From NCBI GenBank assembly GCA_008501785.1, contig QQUD01000517.1, positions 1-9,206 of the forward strand: a stretch of 9,206 bases of DNA, in the 5' to 3' direction. The notes under the pieces are model-generated. The model made no database searches and had not been told where the DNA came from. It saw only the letters and a list, made by a program, of their open reading frames with translations. The DNA comes from Chloroflexota bacterium (lineage in GTDB: Bacteria; Chloroflexota; Anaerolineae; Promineifilales; Promineifilaceae). How positions within the stretch are numbered: position 1 is the first letter of the stretch; every line of letters begins with the position of its first letter. Of this stretch, positions 1 to 8,563 are shown piece after piece. The position numbers and the translations under genes were made by a program.

Positions 1-2427
1 GGCAACAGTTCCCTCAACCAACAAGCCATTTAATTGCAACAAACATTGTTGCACAAGATGTTGTGTCGGTTCATCCAAGGGGGCATCCGTGTTTGTCTGA
101 CTTACGAAAAGAAGCGACTGCACAATATCAGCGGCGGTTGGTTCATTTCGTACACCCAACCAGCGATAAAGCGCACGAATCGACTCACTGTCTACCGGTT
201 CAGCAATATGCACCTGTGTACCCAACAGCCTTTCTACGTCTCGTGATGCAAAGGCATTATTTGCCGCACGAAACGAACCATCGAGACAAGCAATCAATGG
301 GAGATCGCTTAACTGCGATTGCAACTCTCGGTCATCTCGAAACTCACCGAGCCGCTCCGCCAAAAGTTGAAGCAGCCGGTGTCGTCCGTCTGAGGGAATA
401 TCAAGGTGTTGGGTGAGCACACGCGGCAGTTGTTCATAAACATACGTTTCGAAATCAAGTTCCTGCACGCCTAAATCACGCAAGAATTGAGGCCGCCCCC
501 CGATTAAATCTAAATCTACTGTGCCAGAGAGTTTGAGCGGGTCTTCAAAGCCGCCAGGGATGTAGAGGTGAGATAACGGCCGTAATTCCCCATTCACCGG
601 CACCAACGGCAATCGGCGAATATCTTGCTGCAATGTCGGATCGTCGGCAAAAATCTCAATTTGGTTCGATTCAAACCAGCGAAAAATCCCTGGCACATCT
701 AGGCGTTCCATGCGCCATTCATATTCCAGTTGGTCCAAAGGTATATCGACCAACTGGTTTACAGCTTGCCGCACACCAAAATTATTGACAAACTGCCCTG
801 GAAATCTGTTTTCCGACACAGCTTCATGCACCCACAAAGCATCTGGAAAAAGCGTTTTTGCTTCTGATTTGCCACGAAAAACATGATTGCTCTGTTCTAA
901 CGTCATCACTTCAGACAATACGAGGCTACATCGTTGCAACATATTTAATGCAGCCTCCCTTTCTTGAGGATGCAGCACATTTATCAACAGCCTATCAATC
1001 AAATTCCACAGCGTTTGCAACGCATCTACACTGCGCAAAAATAACGGCGCTTCAAATAACGGCATTGACCGAACCAAACCAGCTTGCTTCAATGCATCTG
1101 TCACGTCTTGAATGGAAAGGTCTACTGCACGGATCTCGGATTGCCGCATTAATTGGCTATGTGGGTTTAAATCAGGATGAAGGATGGGGATTTTGAGGGA
1201 GTTGAGCAGGGAAACGGCCGTTTCCCTCACCCCACGCCCCGGTAATCGTACATCTGCCGGTAACAGCCATTGATCATCTGCCGTAAACAGGATCGGTTTG
1301 TTGTGCAAGGTTGGGGCAACCGTTTGCCAGAAAGCAGCAAACACATCTGGCAGCTCACCTTCATTTGCCAACTGCTGCGTGTACGCCATTTTTTGCAGCA
1401 AATCCCAAAAGTCAAAGGGGCCAAGCTGCTGAGGCAAACTATCAAACTGGTTGGCAATCACATTTGCCGCACACCGAATGGCCGCCCGATTCCACTCCGA
1501 TTGATAATCGCTGCCAAAATGAATGCGTTTGCGGTCTGTTGTTGGGTAAAAATCTGCGTTGATATGCAAAGGCAGCGGTGTCGTAGATTCAGTAGGCAGC
1601 ACAGCAAACAGACGCCCCTGCTGGTCAAGCCCAGATGCCCGAACGGCGATGCGTACGTCACTGCGTCGTTTTTCTTCGATTTGCCACGGGTATTGTGTCC
1701 GTAGTTGGATGGCTTCTGCAGCAAAATCACCTTGCATCAGCAGCCATGTAGTCGTGCTGTTTAACCCTTGCAGCACAATTTCATCAGGGGCTGGTGTGAG
1801 CCGTTCAATGCGTTGGATAAGACGGCCGTTTCGCTTCACTTCCAACACCTGCAACTGCTGTAAAAACAGCGCAGCTACCTCAGTGGCAACAGCAATTGTG
1901 TCGGCCAGACTGTCAAGTTGATCTGCCTGAATTGCCTCAATTCGCAACGCACGCCGCACAGGAGACCGGGCATCAAAGGCCCACGGTAGTCGGAAACAAG
2001 TACCTTGGGTTTTTTCCTGGCGTTCCTGAATACGCTGTGCAGGGGCCGCGTCAGGTTGAATGGTCCAATGTATGTTATTTGAGTAAATTTCAGGGGCATC
2101 GGTAATCTGATAAACGGCGACAAAGCCAATGCCAAACGCACCTGTCGTGCCAACTTCTTCGCGCTTACCACCACCAGCTAAGTTTTGCAGCCGCTCAAAA
2201 TCGACAGGACGGAAGACCCCGTTATTTTTAACAATCAATGCTTCATCAGTGATGTCAAAGGAGAGGTTTGTGGTGGGAGAACGGCCGTTTTCACCTTGAA
2301 CATCATCTGCATTTTGAATAAGTTCGTATGTCAAAATGTCGATGCCAGTCAAGTCACGCAGCTGCGCTTCCAAAAAACCGAGGTAATTTACATCTTGCGA
2401 TTTGTAAGTGAAGTCGTTTTGAGTCAT
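1..2427 (-). CDS. Sacsin/NOV-like Hsp90-type ATPase, large protein, 3' end beyond the window
   Basis: The frame is open from an ATG at 2427 down to base 1 (809 codons read, no stop), so the gene is 3'-truncated by the window. The N-terminus carries a GHKL/Hsp90-type ATP-binding module: ELIQNADD (residues 35-42, N-box), NNG (68-70), LAGGGKR (83-89) and GAFGIGF (96-102), the arrangement typical of sacsin and plant NO VEIN proteins. A second family hallmark is LPLHINADFYPTTDRKRI at about residues 285-302. The remaining 500 residues are mostly helical-looking and I recognise no further domain. An AGAAGG Shine-Dalgarno (plus 2434-2439) lies 6 bases before the ATG. In this family the module is thought to act as an ATP-driven chaperone or conformational switch; bacterial members are poorly characterised and some sit in conflict-related loci. 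The function here is inferred from fold only. The family call is sure, the role is not. Confidence 0.88.
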   Translation of the reverse strand, partial: MTQNDFTYKSQDVNYLGFLEAQLRDLTGIDILTYELIQNADDVQGENGRSPTTNLSFDITDEALIVKNNGVFRPVDFERLQNLAGGGKREEVGTTGAFGIGFVAVYQITDAPEIYSNNIHWTIQPDAAPAQRIQERQEKTQGTCFRLPWAFDARSPVRRALRIEAIQADQLDSLADTIAVATEVAALFLQQLQVLEVKRNGRLIQRIERLTPAPDEIVLQGLNSTTTWLLMQGDFAAEAIQLRTQYPWQIEEKRRSDVRIAVRASGLDQQGRLFAVLPTESTTPLPLHINADFYPTTDRKRIHFGSDYQSEWNRAAIRCAANVIANQFDSLPQQLGPFDFWDLLQKMAYTQQLANEGELPDVFAAFWQTVAPTLHNKPILFTADDQWLLPADVRLPGRGVRETAVSLLNSLKIPILHPDLNPHSQLMRQSEIRAVDLSIQDVTDALKQAGLVRSMPLFEAPLFLRSVDALQTLWNLIDRLLINVLHPQEREAALNMLQRCSLVLSEVMTLEQSNHVFRGKSEAKTLFPDALWVHEAVSENRFPGQFVNNFGVRQAVNQLVDIPLDQLEYEWRMERLDVPGIFRWFESNQIEIFADDPTLQQDIRRLPLVPVNGELRPLSHLYIPGGFEDPLKLSGTVDLDLIGGRPQFLRDLGVQELDFETYVYEQLPRVLTQHLDIPSDGRHRLLQLLAERLGEFRDDRELQSQLSDLPLIACLDGSFRAANNAFASRDVERLLGTQVHIAEPVDSESIRALYRWLGVRNEPTAADIVQSLLFVSQTNTDAPLDEPTQHLVQQCLLQLNGLLVEGTVA
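1208..1227. repeat. 20-bp perfect palindrome; best copy of a dispersed ACGGCCGT motif
   Basis: The bases here form a perfect 20-bp palindrome centred on CGGCCG, inside the sacsin-like gene. The core ACGGCCGT recurs exactly at 576, 1214, 1822, 2281, 2907, 4048, 4101, 7620 and 8149 (start positions), with a one-base variant GCGGCCGT at 3515. The copies at 7620 and 8149 extend to AAACGGCCGTTT. At equal base composition one 8-mer is expected about 0.14 times in 9.2 kb. The copies are inside coding regions and are read in different frames (as NGR, DGR, TAV, RP, AAV), so no peptide motif explains them. Confidence 0.8.
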
Positions 2428-2510
2428 TCAGGGCCTTCTCTTTACTCACGTGATCGTCTTCTCTTTTCAATAACCATACACTGTTTGCAAGGACTGCACA
2501 ACCAAAAAAG

Positions 2511-2552
2511 TGTAAGACTTGACAAGTTTTTTGATATCCTTCAAGTCTTGCA
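2511..2552. promoter_or_regulatory. Inverted repeat in the divergent intergenic region, candidate operator or leader stem
   Basis: TGTAAGACTTGA (2511-2522) and TCAAGTCTTGCA (2541-2552) are inverted copies: nine bases pair perfectly, a T/G wobble follows and two more pairs extend it, around an 18-base loop. A related half-site, TTTGCAAGGACT, lies at 2484-2495. The repeat is in the 274-base gap between the divergent sacsin-like and RRM genes. It could be a regulator binding site or, if transcribed, an RNA stem in the RRM leader. TTGACA at 2519-2524 has no good -10 at normal spacing, so I do not call a promoter. Nothing else in the gap is clear. Confidence 0.5.
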
Positions 2553-2685
2553 AATTATGAGTACAAGATGAGAGAGGGGGAGGCTAACTATAGACAAATC
2601 CGCATTTATGAATCATAATGCCGGTTCTGTTTGATTCCCATGCTGTTCGGTATGTGACTGAACTGCACGGGATTTTTTTATTTTT

Positions 2686-2704
2686 AGGAGACGTGAATAA
2701 ATTG
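2686..2704 (+). promoter_or_regulatory. Ribosome binding site and start choice for the RRM gene
   Basis: AGGAG is at 2686-2690. The in-frame GTG at 2693 is only 2 bases away, which is too close; the in-frame TTG at 2702 is 11 bases away and gives the N-terminus MSKKIYVGNL that is usual for small bacterial RRM proteins. I therefore prefer TTG 2702, with GTG 2693 (three residues longer) as the alternative. The 11-base string AGGAGACGTGA is shared with the TfoX-like gene's start region (5919-5929 area). Confidence 0.5.
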
Positions 2705-3010
2705 AGTAAAAAAATATATGTAGGAAACTTGCCTTTTAGTGCAACAGAAGAACAGGTACGTGAATTGTTTGTAGAACATGGCGAAGTAGAATCAATCGCT
2801 ATGATCACAGATCGTGACACAGGCAGGTTCCGAGGATTTGGTTTCGTTGAAATGGAAGATTCCAAAGCAAATGCAGCCATCAGTGCATTGAACGATGCAA
2901 TGTTTGACGGCCGTGCATTGCGTGTCAACGAAGCACGCCCACGCGAAGATCGTGGGGGTGGCGGACGTCGCAATGATCGTCGCGGTGGCGGCGGCGGCAG
3001 CCGCTGGTAA
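2702..3010 (+). CDS. Small RRM RNA-binding protein with RGG-type tail
   Basis: The 102-residue product is a single RNA recognition motif plus a short basic tail. RNP2 is KIYVGNL (4-10) and RNP1 is RGFGFVEM (44-51), with the aromatic residues at Tyr6, Phe46 and Phe48 that stack on RNA bases. Residues 79-102 are Arg/Gly-rich, with GGGG and GGGGG runs, ending SRW. This is the layout of the cyanobacterial Rbp proteins and their relatives, cytoplasmic single-RRM proteins that bind single-stranded RNA and are often cold- or stress-induced; induction here is not visible. The long upstream leader (from about 2560) would suit post-transcriptional control. A further upstream in-frame ATG (2618) would add 28 residues not seen in the family and would place the ribosome site inside the gene. 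The gene is monocistronic, closed by the palindromic terminator at 3057-3090. Confidence 0.93.
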   Translation: MSKKIYVGNLPFSATEEQVRELFVEHGEVESIAMITDRDTGRFRGFGFVEMEDSKANAAISALNDAMFDGRALRVNEARPREDRGGGGRRNDRRGGGGGSRW

Positions 3011-3023
3011 ATCATTGCGTGGT

Positions 3024-3053
3024 TTGTCAATGATGAACCATTCAAGATAAAAT
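3024..3053 (+). promoter_or_regulatory. Candidate promoter for the ABC-F gene
   Basis: TTGTCA (3024-3029) and TAAAAT (3048-3053) each match the sigma-70 consensus at five of six bases, with an 18-base spacer. The start site would be near 3060, so the transcript would begin within the terminator palindrome. The call rests on the hexamers only. Without it the ABC-F gene would depend on read-through, as only 22 bases separate the terminator from its start. Confidence 0.45.
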
Positions 3054-3056
3054 AAT

Positions 3057-3090
3057 AAACGGTCGTTTTCATATGAAAACGACCGTTTTT
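3057..3090 (+). terminator. Rho-independent terminator after the RRM gene
   Basis: A perfect palindrome of two 16-base arms (3057-3072 and 3073-3088, centre CATATG) is followed by a T run (3086-3090, then CTTT). The G/C-containing lower stem with an A/T tip and U tract is a classical intrinsic terminator. It sits 46 bases after the RRM stop and 22 bases before the ABC-F start. A weaker 7-bp repeat (ATCATTG 3011-3017, CAATGAT 3028-3034) directly follows the RRM stop codon. Confidence 0.8.
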
Positions 3091-3112
3091 CTTTGCAAAG
3101 ATAAGGTGATTT

Positions 3113-4747
3113 GTGTTAACGATTCAGAATGTGACCCTGGCATTTGGGCAGCGTACTTTGTTTAAAGATGTCAATTTAAAATTTATACCGGGCAACTGTT
3201 ATGGTCTGATTGGGCCAAATGGAGCCGGTAAATCCACTTTGCTCAAAGTGATTGCCGGTCACATCGAAGCCAACAAAGGCACGATTAGTGTCGGCCCAAA
3301 CGAACGAATCGCCATCTTGCAGCAGGATCAATTTGCTTTTGATGCATATGGGGTGCTGGAAACTGTCATCATGGGGTATCAGCGTTTGTATGACGTCCTG
3401 AGAGAACGAGATGCCATTTATACCAAACCCGATTTTTCAGAGGCAGATGGCCTACGCGCCGCCGATCTAGAAGGGGAAGTTGCAGAATTAGGCGGTTATG
3501 ATGCGGAATCGGAAGCGGCCGTTTTACTCAGCAGTCTGGGTCTAGATGAATCGCTCTATCAGAAAAACATGAAAGAGTTGGAGCCTAGCCAAAAAGTGCG
3601 CGTGCTGCTGGCTCAAGCATTGTTTGGTAGTCCCGATATTTTGCTGCTCGACGAACCGACCAATCAACTCGATTTGGCATCTATCGCGTGGCTAGAAGAT
3701 TTTTTGTATCGCTTCCCAAACACTGTCATCGTTGTTTCCCATGATCGCCACTTTCTCAATAATGTCTGTACCCATATTGCCGATATTGATTTTGGCAAGA
3801 TTCAACTATTTGTGGGCAATTATGATTTCTGGTATCAAACCAGCCAGCTCATTCAAATACAGCAAAAAAATGAAGCCAAGAAACGCACGGATAAGATCAA
3901 AGAGCTGCAGCAATTTGTGCGCCGATTTAGTGCAAATGCCTCTAAATCAAAACAAGCCACTTCACGGAAAAACTTGATTGAGAAGCTCTCGATTGATGAT
4001 TTGCCGGTATCAACGCGCAAGTTTCCCTATGTCGATTTCAAACCAGAACGGCCGTGTGGCAAAGTGATTTTGTCGATTGAGGATTTGAGTAAGAGAGTAG
4101 ACGGCCGTTTCATCCTCCACAACCTAAACTTAAATGTTAACCCAGGTGACAAAATTGCCTTTATCGGTCCCAACGATCTCATCAAATCAACCTTATTCCA
4201 GATATTAATGGAAGAACTCGCACCAGACAGTGGTAAATTTAACTGGGGCGTCACCATCACCCCCGCCTACTTCCCAAAAGAAAATGCCACTTACTTTGAC
4301 ACCGATTTAAACTTGGTCGATTGGCTGCGTCAATATTCATCAGACGACAGTGAATCTTTTGTGCGTGGCTTTCTAGGACGAATGCTTTTCTCAGGCGAAG
4401 AAGCGCTTAAAAATACAAGAGTGTTGTCTGGCGGAGAGAAAGTACGCTGCATGTTGTCGCGCATGATGTTAAGCGGTGCCAATGTGCTGCTGCTCGATGA
4501 ACCCACCGATCATCTTGATCTGGAAGCAATCTCAGCACTCAATGAGGGGCTAATTAAATTTCCAGGGGTTGTGCTATTTGCATCACACGATTACCAATTC
4601 GTAAATACCATCGCCAATCGCATCGTTGAAATCACACCCAACGGCGTTCTTGACCGCATGATGTCGCTTGCAGCATATAATCAAGACCCAAATGTGCAAC
4701 AGTTGCGTAACAAGCTATACCAGGGGCAGCAAATGCTGCGTGTTTAA
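3113..4747 (+). CDS. ybiT: ABC-F ATPase, YbiT type, with degenerate second nucleotide site
   Basis: The 544-residue soluble protein has two ABC ATPase domains and no membrane segment, as in the ABC-F family of ribosome-associated translation factors; E. coli YbiT is the closest relative I recognise (shared VRVLLAQAL, SHDRHFLN and RFSANASKS strings). NBD1 has Walker A GPNGAGKST (34-42), Walker B LLLDEPT (177-183) and switch His210. The interdomain linker (about 241-300) carries RRFSANASKSKQATSR (270-285). NBD2 has signature LSGGE (438-442), Walker B LLLDEPT (459-465) and His492. Odd features: NBD2's P-loop reads GPNDLIKST (352-360), without the glycine before the lysine; its Q-loop Gln is replaced by Lys389; NBD1's signature is LEPSQ (156-160). 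The GTG start has AAGGTGAT just upstream (3103-3110). The stop overlaps that of the convergent methyltransferase gene. An antibiotic-resistance role is possible but nothing shows it. Confidence 0.93.
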   Translation: MLTIQNVTLAFGQRTLFKDVNLKFIPGNCYGLIGPNGAGKSTLLKVIAGHIEANKGTISVGPNERIAILQQDQFAFDAYGVLETVIMGYQRLYDVLRERDAIYTKPDFSEADGLRAADLEGEVAELGGYDAESEAAVLLSSLGLDESLYQKNMKELEPSQKVRVLLAQALFGSPDILLLDEPTNQLDLASIAWLEDFLYRFPNTVIVVSHDRHFLNNVCTHIADIDFGKIQLFVGNYDFWYQTSQLIQIQQKNEAKKRTDKIKELQQFVRRFSANASKSKQATSRKNLIEKLSIDDLPVSTRKFPYVDFKPERPCGKVILSIEDLSKRVDGRFILHNLNLNVNPGDKIAFIGPNDLIKSTLFQILMEELAPDSGKFNWGVTITPAYFPKENATYFDTDLNLVDWLRQYSSDDSESFVRGFLGRMLFSGEEALKNTRVLSGGEKVRCMLSRMMLSGANVLLLDEPTDHLDLEAISALNEGLIKFPGVVLFASHDYQFVNTIANRIVEITPNGVLDRMMSLAAYNQDPNVQQLRNKLYQGQQMLRV

Positions 4748-5427
4748 ACATTTCGTTTTAATCGGCAGCGACCCACTTCATAAATACCAATATTCTGCCC
4801 TTTGAAATTAAGTCGAAATGGGGATGCTGTTAACCCTTTACGCAGTGCATAATCCGTTAAACTCTCCAGCCATTGTACCCCTATCGGCGGGTAAAAGGGT
4901 TCCTCAATCACACAGCAGGGAAACAAAACAAATCCACATCCATATTCCGCCGCTGCATCAATAATTGCTGCATTACACCCATGTGCATGCATCCCCACCA
5001 GCAAATCAAACTGGTTCCCCATCTCCTTTACAAACGGCTTGTCAATGTGTGGAACGGTTTCATCTGGCGCAATCTTCACCCGCTTTCCAGTGGCAATATC
5101 TTTGTACTTATTAATCAATAATTGATGGGTTGGATCAATAACAACCGCCTCATAGCCACTATTTTGCAACAAATAGGCAAACAGCCCTTTGCCACCAGCA
5201 ATGTCTGCCACCCGGCATGGCTCAAATCGTTCCGTTATCCATCGATGCAGCAGTTGGAACCGAAACTTCTTCATTTTTCGCAATTCACGTATTCTTTTAG
5301 TTTCCAATGACTGAATATGCAAAAAGTCAGCGCCAGCAAACACAGCATTTCGCGGAGATCGTGCCGCCATTGTTTGCAAACTTTGAAAAAGTTCCTGACT
5401 ATATTCTCGATCTTTGTGTTTTGTCAT
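4744..5427 (-). CDS. Class I SAM-dependent methyltransferase-like protein
   Basis: The 227-residue protein has a Rossmann methyltransferase core. Motif I is VADIAGGKGLFAYLL (73-87), the acidic residue ending strand 2 is Asp98 (VIDP), and a later strand reads LLVGMHAHGCNAA (142-154) followed by VLFPCCV (167-173). The pairing of a G-H-A-x-G loop with a PCC loop recalls the METTL25/RRNAD1 and Trm44 groups of RNA methyltransferases, but the match is only by motif and the substrate is unknown. The N-terminal 60 residues are basic and helical. The ATG lies 9 bases after the stop of the HxlR regulator, so both are probably one transcript. Its stop overlaps the ABC-F stop by 4 bases, which leaves no room for a terminator between them. 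Confidence 0.75.
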   Translation of the reverse strand: MTKHKDREYSQELFQSLQTMAARSPRNAVFAGADFLHIQSLETKRIRELRKMKKFRFQLLHRWITERFEPCRVADIAGGKGLFAYLLQNSGYEAVVIDPTHQLLINKYKDIATGKRVKIAPDETVPHIDKPFVKEMGNQFDLLVGMHAHGCNAAIIDAAAEYGCGFVLFPCCVIEEPFYPPIGVQWLESLTDYALRKGLTASPFRLNFKGQNIGIYEVGRCRLKRNV

Positions 5428-5436
5428 CGCCTATCT

Positions 5437-5790
5437 CTAAAACCCTTTACTCTTCCCTGTTCCTGACACATGTGTCAATCCCCAATGAATCATTGCCTGC
5501 ACCAATGGTTCCAAGTCACGTCCCTTTGTCGTTAAATGGTACTCATACCGCAGCGGGTGCTGTTGGTACGGCACCATTTCCAATATGTTGTGTGCAACCA
5601 GTCGCTTTAAACGATTGGCGAGAATATTTGAAGGAATGCGTTCAGCCATTGCCGCAAATTCGCCATATTTGTGACTGTCATATAATAAAATATCACGCAC
5701 AATCAATAGCGTCCATTTATCTCCCACCACTTCCAGTACTGCATTTACGGGACAATCTGATCGCAAGTTGTCACTGTTTTTTTTATTCAT
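5437..5790 (-). CDS. HxlR-family winged-helix transcriptional regulator
   Basis: The 117-residue protein matches the HxlR (DUF24) family: CPVNAVLEVVGDKWTLLIVR (13-32) at the start, a recognition-helix region RIPSNILANRLKRL (51-64), and the wing RYEYHLTTKG (81-90) before the dimer helix. Cys13 is the N-terminal cysteine that in YodB and HypR senses oxidants or electrophiles, so a redox or quinone signal is plausible. The ATG at 5790 is preferred to a TTG at 5826, because it gives the usual family length and the TTG lies almost at the predicted transcript start. The ATG has no clear Shine-Dalgarno. The gene is divergent from the TfoX-like gene and is followed by the methyltransferase gene; the palindrome at 5829-5844 is the likely site of autoregulation. 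Confidence 0.92.
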   Translation of the reverse strand: MNKKNSDNLRSDCPVNAVLEVVGDKWTLLIVRDILLYDSHKYGEFAAMAERIPSNILANRLKRLVAHNILEMVPYQQHPLRYEYHLTTKGRDLEPLVQAMIHWGLTHVSGTGKSKGF

Positions 5791-5808
5791 AACAATTAGA
5801 ACATATGA

Positions 5809-5837
5809 TTGACTTTTGTTTTGCAAGTGACTACAAT
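5809..5837 (+). promoter_or_regulatory. Sigma-70 promoter for the TfoX-like gene
   Basis: TTGACT (5809-5814) and TACAAT (5832-5837) are separated by 17 bases; each differs from consensus at one position. The start site would be near 5844, giving a leader of about 85 bases before the ATG at 5929. Confidence 0.75.
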
Positions 5838-5844
5838 GATAGTC
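5829..5844. promoter_or_regulatory. Palindromic operator covering both divergent -10 boxes
   Basis: GACTA (5829-5833) and TAGTC (5840-5844) form a perfect inverted repeat with a 6-base spacer. It covers the -10 boxes of both the plus-strand (5832-5837) and minus-strand (5836-5841) promoters. HxlR proteins bind short palindromes near their own promoters, so the divergent HxlR regulator is the obvious candidate; binding itself is inferred. Confidence 0.6.
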
Positions 5845-5864
5845 GATTGCTGGATTTTTTACAA
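5836..5864 (-). promoter_or_regulatory. Sigma-70 promoter for the HxlR-methyltransferase unit
   Basis: On the minus strand TTGTAA (plus 5859-5864) and TATCAT (plus 5836-5841) are separated by 17 bases. The -10 matches consensus at five of six positions, the -35 at four. The start would be near 5829, about 40 bases before the HxlR ATG. Confidence 0.55.
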
Positions 5865-5886
5865 AATCAATTCTACCCTGGTGTAA

Positions 5887-5909
5887 AGGACAAAACAGCG
5901 TTTTGTCCT
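5887..5909 (+). repeat. 10-bp perfect hairpin in the TfoX leader
   Basis: AGGACAAAAC (5887-5896) and GTTTTGTCCT (5900-5909) pair perfectly around a 3-base loop. TACCC (5874-5878) and GGGTA (5912-5916) could extend it after an internal loop. There is no T run, so it is not a terminator of the usual kind. It ends 8 bases before the GAGGAG ribosome site (5918-5923). It may stabilise the messenger, modulate translation, or be a copy of a short palindromic repeat family; no second copy is in this window. Confidence 0.6.
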
Positions 5910-5928
5910 ACGGGTAAGAGGAGACGTG

Positions 5929-6288
5929 ATGGCATACGATGAGGGATTAGCTGAACGAATTCGAGATGTAGTAATTGACCGCCCCGCTGTAGTGGAAAAA
6001 AAGATGTTTGGTGGCATTGCATTTATGCATCGGAATTACATGTTTTGCGGTGTCATTGATGACATGCTTATGGCACGCGTTGGACCAGACAATTACCCAA
6101 ACTCACTGTCACAACCTCACGTGCGTGAAATGGATTTCACAGGTCGAAAAATGAAGGGGTATGTTTACGTAGCTCCTGAAGGAATCGAATCGGATGATGA
6201 CCTTGCTTATTGGGTTAACCTTTGTGCCGAATTTGTAGAGTCGCTGCCACCCAAGAAACCGAAAAAGAAAAAAGCTTCGCGAAAATAA
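5929..6288 (+). CDS. TfoX N-terminal-domain protein
   Basis: The 119-residue product is a stand-alone TfoX N-terminal domain (PF04993-type). Hallmarks are KKMFGGIAFM (24-33) and, later, FTGRKMKGYVYV (70-81) and the Asp/Glu-rich helix start around 86-92. The C-terminus (109-119) is a run of Lys and Arg, which suggests nucleic-acid contact. Full-length TfoX/Sxy is a competence regulator in gammaproteobacteria and has an additional C-terminal domain. Single-domain proteins like this one are widespread and without a known role, so competence should not be assumed. The ATG at 5929 lies 5 bases after GAGGAG; the adjacent in-frame GTG at 5926 is too close. The gene is divergent from the HxlR regulator and convergent with the histidine kinase, whose stop is 6 bases away. 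Confidence 0.88.
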   Translation: MAYDEGLAERIRDVVIDRPAVVEKKMFGGIAFMHRNYMFCGVIDDMLMARVGPDNYPNSLSQPHVREMDFTGRKMKGYVYVAPEGIESDDDLAYWVNLCAEFVESLPPKKPKKKKASRK

Positions 6289-6294
6289 ATTATC

Positions 6295-8016
6295 TTATTT
6301 CCGAACTTTAACTGGCTGACATAACCTTAATGCGGAAACTAAATCATTAATTTGAATAGGTTTACTGATGTAATCATCCATGCCAATGCTCAAATATTTC
6401 TCTTTTTGGCCTGCCAATGCATCGGCGGTTAAGGCGATGATACGGGGCTGTTTTTCGATAGCCCACTCCTGACGAATGCGACGGGTCGCCTCACAGCCAT
6501 CAAGCTCAGGCATCTGTACATCCATTAAAATGACATCATACGATTGCCTTTGCAACGCTTGCAATGCTTCAAGCCCATTCGCTACCACATCAGATCGATA
6601 TCCAAGTCGCTCTAAGATGCGCATATTTACTTTTTGATTGATCACGTTATCCTCTGCAATAAGGATACGAAGAGGGTGCTCAAGCCCCATTTGCCGGTTG
6701 AAAACATTAGTTTGGTTTAGCTTTTTATCTGAGGCAAGTGTACCGGTATTAAAAATGTATTGAAGCACTTCATCTAGTTGAGCAGGTTTTACTGGTTTTG
6801 TGAGGTAGGCAGCAAATTGAATCTCTTCGGGGATTGGCATTTCAACATCAACCGATGTGAGCAGCACAAGCGGGAATTCCTCTGGTGAAAACTTTTGACG
6901 AATTCTAACAGCTAATTCCAAACCATCCATATAAGGCATTTGCATATCTAAAATTGCAATGTCATATGTTTTACCTTCACGCAAAAAATCTAACGCTTCG
7001 GCGGCTGAGGGAGCCGTTTGAAATTTCATACCCAATGATTGCAATTGACGAGAAAGGATATAGCGATTTGTGGCATTATCATCGACGATAAGCACCTTTT
7101 TACCTGCTAATGCCGGTTGCAAACCTGAACCTTTAACGCGTTTCAGCCGTTCGGCGACTGGAGCAACGACGGTGAAATGGAAAGTTGATCCCATTCCTTT
7201 TTGACTTTCAACCCAAATTCGCCCTCCCATCAAAACGGAAAGTCGTTTACAGATTGCTAATCCCAAACCAGTACCACCATATTTGCGTGTGGTTGAAGCG
7301 TCTACCTGGCTAAAAGATTGAAACAGACGGGGCAAGTCTTCCATTGAAATTCCGACACCCGTATCTCGAACTGAAAAATGAATTTCATGCAAATTTTCTT
7401 TAACTTGGCGAGTGTCTACTGACAAGACCACTTCACCTCTTTCGGTGAACTTGACAGCATTGTTCAAAAGATTTACTAAAATCTGGCGCAGCCGCGTTGG
7501 ATCGCTAATGATGGCGCTGGGCACCCGTTTGTGCATTAAATAGGCCAAGTCTAACCCTTTTCCATACGCTTGGGGTGACAATAAATCGAGTGCTGATTCA
7601 ACACAATCACGTAGGTCAAACGGCCGTTTCTCCAACACCAATTTATCTGCTTCAATTTTTGAAAAGTCAAGAATATCGTTAATTAACGTCAGCAGGGTAT
7701 CGCCACCATTTCGAATCGTTTCCACAAACTCTTCCTGCTCTTCTGTGAGATCTGTATCGAGCAACAATGCCGTCATACCAATTACTGCATTCATTGGCGT
7801 GCGAATTTCATGGCTCATATTTGCTAGAAAATCACTTTTGGCCTGGTTTGCAGAAATTTCCTGATCACGAGCAACAGCTAAAGCATCTGCCATCTTTTTT
7901 AATGCTTCATTGGCATCATAAAGCTCTCTTGTCTTAATTTCAGCAATCGACTCAGCCTCTTTTCGCGCTTTTCGCTCACGGGCCAATCTTTTTTCGAGCT
8001 TAGCGATGTCATTCAT
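6295..8016 (-). CDS. Soluble hybrid histidine kinase with two receiver domains, H-NOX partner
   Basis: The 573-residue protein autophosphorylates on a histidine and passes phosphate to receiver aspartates. Residues 1-60 are a charged coiled coil with no sensor domain and no membrane segment. The HisKA box is [14 protein letters not shown] (68-81, His69). The ATPase has NLLNNAVKF (182-190), DTGVGI (218-223) and [10 protein letters not shown] (246-255). REC1 spans about 306-420 (acidic pair 312-313, phospho-acceptor Asp357, Lys407); REC2 spans about 448-565 (Glu455, Asp456, Asp499, Lys552). Both receivers look active. There is no HPt or DNA-binding output, so phosphate must leave through another protein. 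The ATG overlaps the end of the H-NOX gene by 8 bases, which implies translational coupling; AAGGG lies 8 bases upstream. Such kinases paired with H-NOX proteins are controlled by nitric oxide in Shewanella and Vibrio; this pairing is inferred from position. Confidence 0.93.
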
Positions 8017-8563
8017 TTCTTTTTCCCTTAGTTAGCGTAAATTGCGTTTCAGCACCCTGCTCGACCGCAATATCCTGACGGGCAACGGTAATATTTTCAC
8101 CAAAATATTCGACAGCACCTAAAATTAACCCCTCGGCTAGATCGGAAAACGGCCGTTTCGACCGATACGTCATCATCAGCTTTCCTGATTCTGGATGGCT
8201 GTACTCAAAACTTGGGGGATTTGCGTTTTGATACAATTTTTTCACTTCAATATGGACATTGCGATCAACACTCTCCATAAAAGCAAAGGTGGATTCAGCT
8301 TGTGTAAAAAAATCAGGATGTGCAAAGGCAAAACGATTGATCAAGTGCTTCCCAAATTCCTTTACCAGTTCAGAAATAGGTATATCGGTTTGTTGACTCA
8401 AATGAGTTACGAGCTGCAATATCTCATGATGGCTGTAATTCCCGAGAGATGTATAGGCACCATCAGAACTTAGCTGCGACAACTCAATAATCTGGTCAAC
8501 CATTTCAGGCGCGAATGCCTCTTCTACCATTTCCAGAAATTCTGTAAAAATGACACCTTTCAT
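8009..8563 (-). CDS. hnoX: H-NOX haem nitric-oxide sensor protein
   Basis: The 184-residue protein is a stand-alone H-NOX (HNOB) domain of usual length. It begins [15 protein letters not shown], as the family does. The proximal haem ligand is His104 ([10 protein letters not shown], 102-111), and the porphyrin-carboxylate motif Y-x-S-x-R is Tyr133, Ser135, Arg137. Pro116/Pro117 fall where the family has its conserved haem-distorting proline. Counting from the Y-x-S-x-R motif, the distal position held by Tyr140 in the O2-binding Thermoanaerobacter protein is Leu142, so the pocket lacks that hydrogen-bond donor and should favour NO over O2. TAGGA lies about 6 bases before the ATG. The gene runs directly into the hybrid histidine kinase, its probable partner. 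Confidence 0.95.

Follow-up and report, generated by a model that had tools for sequence, protein, structure and literature searches.

We describe a perfect palindromic octamer, ACGGCCGT, which recurs through a stretch of 9,206 nucleotides from a member of the Chloroflexota (contig QQUD01000517.1 of assembly GCA_008501785.1, hereafter the window) and which is almost certainly a genome-wide element of the kind typified by the highly iterated palindrome (HIP) HIP1 of the cyanobacteria. In relatives of the window's species the word is abundant throughout the genome, belongs to a single clade, is maintained as an exact unit and exists in several sequence versions. Its upkeep as a unit is very probably the work of a protein that reads the sequence. 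We infer that this reader is a DNA methyltransferase, for which the best candidate is an orphan DUF1156-like amino-methyltransferase, termed A1 below. The overall reading, that of a HIP1-like palindrome of a Chloroflexota clade with a candidate methyltransferase reading the site and feeding repair, is put forward tentatively, as one that falls just short of being probable.

The octamer is GC-rich and is its own reverse complement. The nine exact copies listed by the initial annotation are all present (Table 1), a density of 0.98 per kilobase (kb); dinucleotide shuffles give a mean of 0.09 (maximum 1 in 200 shuffles; the annotation had reckoned with 0.14) and an order-3 Markov model 0.23. ACGGCCGT is the commonest 8-mer of the window, other palindromic octamers occurring at most twice each. 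As had been described, the copies are spread over five genes, encoded on either strand, and occupy every codon phase; the near copy at 3515 is GCGGCCGT.

Relatives were found with the ABC-F protein encoded in the window (at least 80 loci; phyla beyond the Chloroflexota were sampled through these loci only). The protein groups with the Chloroflexota, and the best six among the matches listed, 71-79% identical, are from Anaerolinea sp. CH6, Anaerolineae CH7, Chloroflexi Go_Eff_bin_125, Chloroflexota KLAP72, Anaerolineaceae NAT123 and Ardenticatenaceae CFX1. Five of these six are rich in ACGGCCGT; the other (locus L003, 74% identical) carries GCGGCCGC instead. Genome-wide counts were made in relatives with the reversed word as control. 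The five best-matching ACGGCCGT-rich genomes gave 9,707 copies against 186 (G001), 6,147 against 71 (G002), 6,888 against 40 (G004), 11,907 against 403 (G005) and 11,353 against 459 (G006), or about 1-1.5 per kb. Genome G003 holds 83 ACGGCCGT (control 5) but 12,040 GCGGCCGC (control 2); G008 (874/22) and G009 (657/43) are intermediate, and G007 (9/13) and G010 (38/519) are non-carriers.

A survey of 298 genomes of the class, out of a larger group, revealed at least 1,000 ACGGCCGT in 11 (G002, G143, G161, G176, G202, G212, G222, G242, G252, G262 and G289). Twelve genomes with more than 5,000 copies are termed strict (G001, G002, G004, G005, G006, G143, G176, G202, G222, G242, G252 and G262); these contain 5,641-13,708 ACGGCCGT against 40-459 reversed words, which corresponds to 0.99-1.99 per kb of whole genome. 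The G+C content of genomes with one or two copies per kb runs from about 0.45 to 0.59. A looser class, termed free-flank, shows an excess of CGGCCG with free flanks in sampled stretches (G008, G009, G161, G212 and G289), and in three of its members GCGGCCGC is also above control (G161, 1,462/2; G212, 1,959/248; G289, 797/13). G161 has in addition 1,727 ACGGCCGT (control 4), as if it stood between versions. Only a mild CGGCCG excess was seen in G232, G124, G045 and G077. The genomes are mostly metagenome bins of uncertain completeness, and "not found" below means absent from those assemblies only; open reading frames (ORFs) were called by simple rules. The proposal that the window samples a HIP1-like genome-wide element is thus borne out by the whole-genome counts of its closest relatives, and the excess outside the window, whose absence the initial annotation had regarded as fatal to the idea, is present in them.

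In a tree of a single gene, rpoB, from 30 genomes (sequences partial for G002, G005, G008 and G009), the 12 strict genomes, G003, the five free-flank genomes and three with the mild CGGCCG excess only (G045, G077 and G124) form one clade with support of 100/100. G003 and the free-flank genomes group together within it (86/89). The three versions of the palindrome, ACGGCCGT, GCGGCCGC and CGGCCG with free flanks, all lie within this one Chloroflexota clade.

A passive origin, in which base composition, codon usage or a chance local cluster produces the repeats, deserves practically no credence. The observed counts, followed by those expected under Markov models of order 3/5/6, are 652 and 35/242/536 for ACGGCCGT in G006 (390 kb), 410 and 15/195/378 in G202 (260 kb), 345 and 12.6/124/283 in G242 (198 kb), 280 and 11/111/218 in G262 (150 kb), and 249 and 12.5/127/242 for GCGGCCGC in G003 (140 kb). 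The excess over order 3 is therefore about 18-27 fold in the five sampled genomes. That the order-6 expectation lies near the count speaks for composition on its face. This was the check proposed by the initial annotation; orders 3 and 5 give far lower values, and order 6 is circular and hence uninformative, the 7-mers on which it relies being largely fragments of the palindrome. In all five samples the palindrome tops the ranking of 8-mers when both strands are counted. By places, a word that overlaps it covers more in two samples: AACGGCCG in G202 (576, complement included) and CGCGGCCG in G003 (306, likewise).

Between 83 and 94% of the sites in the sampled relatives are in ORFs (coding fraction 84-92%), and they are scattered over every codon phase and intergenic DNA. 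Phase 0 (Thr-Ala-Val) is the commonest, a point in favour of a codon effect; it indicates that peptide tolerance influences where copies sit. Over 1.14 Mb of relatives the gaps between sites are near exponential (coefficient of variation 0.87-1.20), with gaps below 50 bp under-represented, and apart from that scarcity regular spacing is unsupported. The successive gaps in the window are 638, 608, 459, 626, 1141, 53, 3519 and 529. Five of the eight agree with the 450-640 bases initially remarked upon, which does not hold as a property of the element; the 3.5 kb gap, also pointed out, exists and is unremarkable beside longest gaps of 2.7-6.5 kb in the relatives' samples.

In the four strict samples the mean observed/expected ratio of words one base off is 1.3-3.7 at positions 1/8 and 0.2-1.2 elsewhere; G003 is an exception, with no enrichment at the outer positions (0.92). 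Strict genomes mostly show more G at positions -3 to -5 and more C at +3 to +5 than phase-matched controls do (0.73-2.9 fold), with exceptions at some positions and phases. An extended motif of 16-18 bp was rejected: the flanks of sites common to G242 and G262 are conserved at 0.91-0.99 against a background of 0.94, and the flank bias is therefore treated as a property of the copies' locations. At -1 the most frequent base depends on the lineage: it is A in the window and in nine of the strict genomes, and C in G006, G242, G262 and G003.

Conservation was measured in three pairs of genomes, G242/G262 (50 kb aligned, 93.7% identical), G008/G009 (14 kb, 78.9% identical) and G252/G222 (5.7 kb). 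Occurrence counts score each conserved site twice, and site-level counts were used where tests were made. In the strict pair G242/G262, an identical partner exists for 162 of 174 occurrences of ACGGCCGT and for 1,634 of 2,325 occurrences of 8-mers of the same composition; by sites, the octamer is kept in 81/93 against 817/1,508 (Fisher p 5e-11). Fourfold synonymous third positions, at which the initial annotation had suggested looking for conservation, differ in 4/152 cases inside the palindrome and 934/6,287 outside (p 1e-6, an optimistic value as the positions of one site are not independent). In windows encoding the same peptide, the palindromic coding is kept in 62/64 and alternative codings in 25/35 (p 4e-4). 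Synonymous sites are thus frozen inside the word only, and the claim that neither a peptide motif nor codon bias alone suffices stands. Together with the abundance and the spread over phases, this refutes composition, codon usage and a chance cluster as explanations.

Sites also persist between more distant genomes. Among the 12 strict genomes, some of them fragmentary here, four rpoB sites are common to 8, 11, 9 and 8 genomes and a fifth to two; one is present in all 11 strict genomes with sequence at that position. Nine relatives were compared along the ABC-F gene of the window. The copy at 4048 recurs unchanged at the corresponding codon in each of the five strict relatives (L001, L002, L004, L005 and L006) and in none of the other four (L003, L008, L009 and L014); that at 4101 is common to the window and L001 only, and the one-off GCGGCCGT has an exact counterpart at its codon in L002, L009 and L014.

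What is kept differs between the versions. In the strict pair CGGCCG is retained, by occurrence, in 166/174 cases with A..T flanks, 32/42 with one correct flank and 42/56 with neither, the control hexamers giving 872/1,146; by sites the values are 83/91 inside A..T and 37/61 elsewhere, the latter indistinguishable from control (p 0.89). The small G252/G222 set agrees with this (9/12 with A..T, 3/12 without, control 28/135). In the free-flank pair G008/G009, CGGCCG is kept by occurrence in 48/66 cases with both A and T, 25/35 with one correct flank and 3/4 with neither, against 42/132 control hexamers and 4/35 hexamers with two CpG; by sites it is 38/67 against 21/111, the control hexamers of this pair being few. 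The bases directly outside the octamer show no extra conservation over background. As the octamer is kept in the strict pair and CGGCCG in the free-flank pair, whatever reads the site takes 8 bp in the strict genomes and 6 bp in the free-flank ones. An explanation by GGCC only found no support: outside CGGCCG this tetramer is kept in 574/696 cases (strict pair) and 34/100 (free-flank pair), little above the respective control hexamers even though GGCC is shorter than these by two bases.

Among known systems the closest is HIP1 (GCGATCGC), likewise a GC-rich palindromic octamer found on the order of once per kb and scattered in genes, with single-base deviants clustered at the outer positions and a solitary methyltransferase as candidate partner (PMC4390886, in part). 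The relatives, at 0.99-1.99 per kb, are over-represented in the sense applied to HIPs, for which a range of ~500-2500 per million bases is given (PMC4390886, in part). The differences are the phylum and the core, CGATCG there and CGGCCG here, with no GATC inside ACGGCCGT. The paper also ties HIP1 to GATC- and CGATCG-specific enzymes (PMC4390886, in part), while the candidate here is a DUF1156-like amino-methyltransferase. The alternate HIPs of single cyanobacteria (for example GGCGCC in Calothrix PCC 7103) resemble the case of G003 in that another GC-rich palindrome replaces the usual one, but they crop up sporadically, and each is paired with a methyltransferase that can act on it (PMC4390886, in part); the Chloroflexota versions share one core, and the length of the unit itself changes (8 versus 6 bp). 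In Synechocystis, M.Ssp6803II produces GGm4CC, an N4-cytosine mark at what is the centre of our palindrome, linked to DNA stability and repair (PMC6560206, in part); in the Chloroflexota pairs, unlike this, GGCC outside CGGCCG is kept little above control. Methylation motifs reported for Chloroflexi in lake genomes are GANTC, TTAA and GCWGC (PMC6329791, in part). The words Chloroflex and CGGCCG are absent from the main text of PMC4390886, and a literature search, with most subscription journals outside its coverage, gave no earlier account of a highly iterated palindrome in Chloroflexota among the matches listed.

The mechanism that we propose follows the model of Elhai for HIP1, in which methylation of the palindrome guides repair (PMC4390886, in part). 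A DNA-acting protein would read ACGGCCGT as an exact 8-bp unit, at one or two sites per kb, and the palindrome would be kept against mutation because of this reading. The orphan A1 would methylate a cytosine of the site at N4; because GCGGCCGC lacks adenine, any mark shared by the versions would have to sit on cytosine. The mark would govern which strand mismatch or recombination repair acts on, or where such repair takes place; changes that destroy a site would be reversed, and new sites would accrue until most DNA lay within ~1 kb of one. The density, the outer-position deviants and the scarcity of very close pairs are compatible with such a model, the last being expected because a second nearby site adds nothing. 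With the outer C as the marked base, the A-flanked octamer breaks the rule of Elhai that G precedes the methylated C; with the C of GGCC marked, it could obey it. That maintenance is coupled to methylation is plausible, if slightly more doubtful than not; that A1 is the methylating enzyme is somewhat unlikely.

A1 is the possible partner that emerged when the solitary methyltransferase suggested by the initial annotation was sought. It belongs to the PF01555 methyltransferase family, is ~680 amino acids long, carries motifs I (LDPMMGGGT) and IV (TDPPY), and weakly resembles the DUF1156 anti-phage model, with a score far under the cut-off. A structure prediction (mean predicted local distance difference test score 60) was not used. 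For a HIP one looks for a cognate methyltransferase in every genome. Eleven of the 12 strict genomes, as well as G003, contain A1; in G004, G005 and G222 it is fragmented or lies at a contig edge. It was not found in G143, the five free-flank genomes, or G007 and G010. Among the PF01555 hits with loci compared, no other family recurs as widely, the distribution of the others being patchy. No restriction gene directly adjoins A1 in the eight of 12 A1-bearing genomes considered (G001, G002, G003, G006, G176, G202, G222 and G242), where its direct neighbours are dusB and genes for LysM proteins, MFS transporters, a MoxR ATPase, NurA or HATPase. A NurA-domain nuclease gene adjoins A1 in G222 and G003 (L138:3803-5050 and L139:1579-2787), with a fragment at a contig edge in G001 (L128:3-236). 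NurA lies beside another methyltransferase in G242 and G262 and near the ABC-F gene in G005; therefore a conserved NurA-A1 operon was rejected. In G002 (L127:2614-4896) the A1 gene is followed by that of a 760-amino acid protein with HATPase domains, an arrangement known from some defence loci.

Several observations weigh against this assignment and the repair model as a whole. G143 is without a detectable A1 yet has the strict palindrome at 1.6 per kb. A near-full-length A1 match is present in 32 of the 298 class genomes (30 single hits of at least 847 bits, and G222 and G104 in two pieces), and 24 of these 32 have no such repeat, none going beyond the mild CGGCCG excess of G232, G124, G045 and G077. 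The A1 tree (G004 omitted, G005 and G222 as parts) interleaves carriers with no-repeat genomes, and the family extends, by source names, to the Desulfobacterota. The comparison that singled out A1 covered the stronger PF01555 hits, those with loci. As few as one or two losses may underlie the pattern of presence and absence, and metagenome bins may have gaps. CGGCCG is kept in the free-flank genomes although A1 was not found there, so that something else reads the core in them. A DPPY motif IV is commoner in adenine than in N4-cytosine enzymes. Finally, MutL was not found in strict G242, though its 93.7%-identical sister has it.

An architectural role is the main rival because it requires no A1, so that G143 and the free-flank genomes fit. 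A nucleoid or replication protein would bind ACGGCCGT about once per kb, selection would act on chromosome organisation or segregation, and the versions would be changes of specificity. It accounts for an exact 8-bp unit kept without its flanks and for persistence over deep divergence, as with the rpoB site in 11 strict genomes and three more in 8-9. The high density and nearly random spacing tell against it, known segregation motifs having few or polar sites, unlike ACGGCCGT; no candidate protein was identified, and no search for one was made. We regard this role as distinctly unlikely, though not negligible.

For the repair steps of the methylation model, MutL was found in 29 of 30 genomes, and mismatch repair is therefore available. 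The MutL match is continuous (524-552 bits) in G003 (C143), G008 (C894), G009 (C285), G212 (C10) and G289 (C336), whereas every other genome with a hit, G161 among them, matches in two pieces separated by a gap around positions 330-428. The continuous type tracks the change of palindrome version, or merely the subclade. Very-short-patch repair raises its own target word, and a cytosine-5 methyltransferase together with such repair could create an excess as a by-product. Vsr-family genes do occur in G143, G242 and G252, each also with a PF00145 (cytosine-5 methyltransferase) hit, but Vsr was not found in the other 15 of 18 repeat-bearing genomes, and no PF00145 enzyme was found in strict G004, G006, G176, G202 and G222 or in free-flank G212. 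As a universal cause this pair is rejected, unless the relevant genes fall in unassembled regions in each of the six genomes, and we consider it very improbable.

Spread as a DNA uptake sequence would have competent cells favour palindrome-bearing DNA, biased uptake and recombination multiplying the copies and protecting them. The density of ~1-2 per kb, the clade-specific versions and the conserved copies resemble the uptake sequence dialects of the Neisseriaceae, which have thousands of copies, clade-specific variants and an invariant core (PMC3630211, in part). Those are tied to transformation. Here the ComEC family is in 28 of 30 genomes, equally with and without the repeat, so that nothing ties it to the repeat and competence gene content does not discriminate. 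An uptake sequence should be a non-palindromic, oriented word, and ACGGCCGT is a perfect palindrome; no uptake sequence is known to be a palindromic octamer. We hold this origin to be improbable.

A more specific form of the methylation reading is a separate Chloroflexota HIP system. A solitary A1-type enzyme would set the 8-bp frame, enzyme changes would shift a genome from ACGGCCGT to GCGGCCGC, and loss of A1 would shrink the unit to CGGCCG, held by a second reader. This is unlikely as a whole; if true, changes in one or two proteins would have altered the most repeated octamer of the genome at ten thousand sites. The role of HIP1 has been open for decades, because palindrome, methyltransferases and lineage are hard to separate in cyanobacteria. 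Here a separate phylum shows the same phenomenon with another core, and one clade offers three natural states (A-flank octamer, G-flank octamer and bare hexamer) together with apparent losses of the candidate enzyme. Cause and effect are therefore separable by comparison, and relatives with different versions of the palindrome provide a new route to learning what such repeats do.

Table 1. Palindrome copies and genes of the window
Feature	Position	Coding strand	Gene	Remarks
ACGGCCGT copy 1	576..583	-	sacsin-domain	phase 2, peptide LRPL
ACGGCCGT copy 2	1214..1221	-	sacsin-domain	phase 0, TAVS; inside extended palindrome GGGAAACGGCCGTTTCCC
ACGGCCGT copy 3	1822..1829	-	sacsin-domain	phase 1, NGRL
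ACGGCCGT copy 4	2281..2288	-	sacsin-domain	phase 1, NGRS
ACGGCCGT copy 5	2907..2914	+	RRM	phase 1, DGRA
GCGGCCGT, one-off copy	3515..3522	+	ABC-F	
ACGGCCGT copy 6	4048..4055	+	ABC-F	phase 2, ERPC
ACGGCCGT copy 7	4101..4108	+	ABC-F	phase 1, DGRF
ACGGCCGT copy 8	7620..7627	-	hybrid histidine kinase	phase 2, KRPF
ACGGCCGT copy 9	8149..8156	-	HNOB	phase 2, KRPF
Sacsin (SACS) domain gene	1..2427	-		open at the left edge of the window; copies 1-4
RRM protein gene	2618..3010	+		glycine-rich tail; copy 5
ABC-F protein gene	3113..4747	+		copies 6 and 7, one-off GCGGCCGT; query for relatives
Hybrid histidine kinase gene	6295..8016	-		two receiver domains; copy 8
HNOB (haem-NO-binding) protein gene	8009..8563	-		copy 9

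The HNOB gene overlaps the start of the hybrid histidine kinase gene (6295-8563), and the two products are predicted, as likely, to form a nitric-oxide or haem-sensing pair. A protein with a TfoX N-terminal domain is encoded at 5926-6288, within the 3.5 kb palindrome-free stretch; relatives of this domain are competence regulators in other bacteria. A terminator-like inverted repeat 3' of the RRM gene (3057-3090) holds ACGGTCGT and ACGACCGT, each one base off the palindrome, and recalls the uptake sequences that sit in terminators in other systems.

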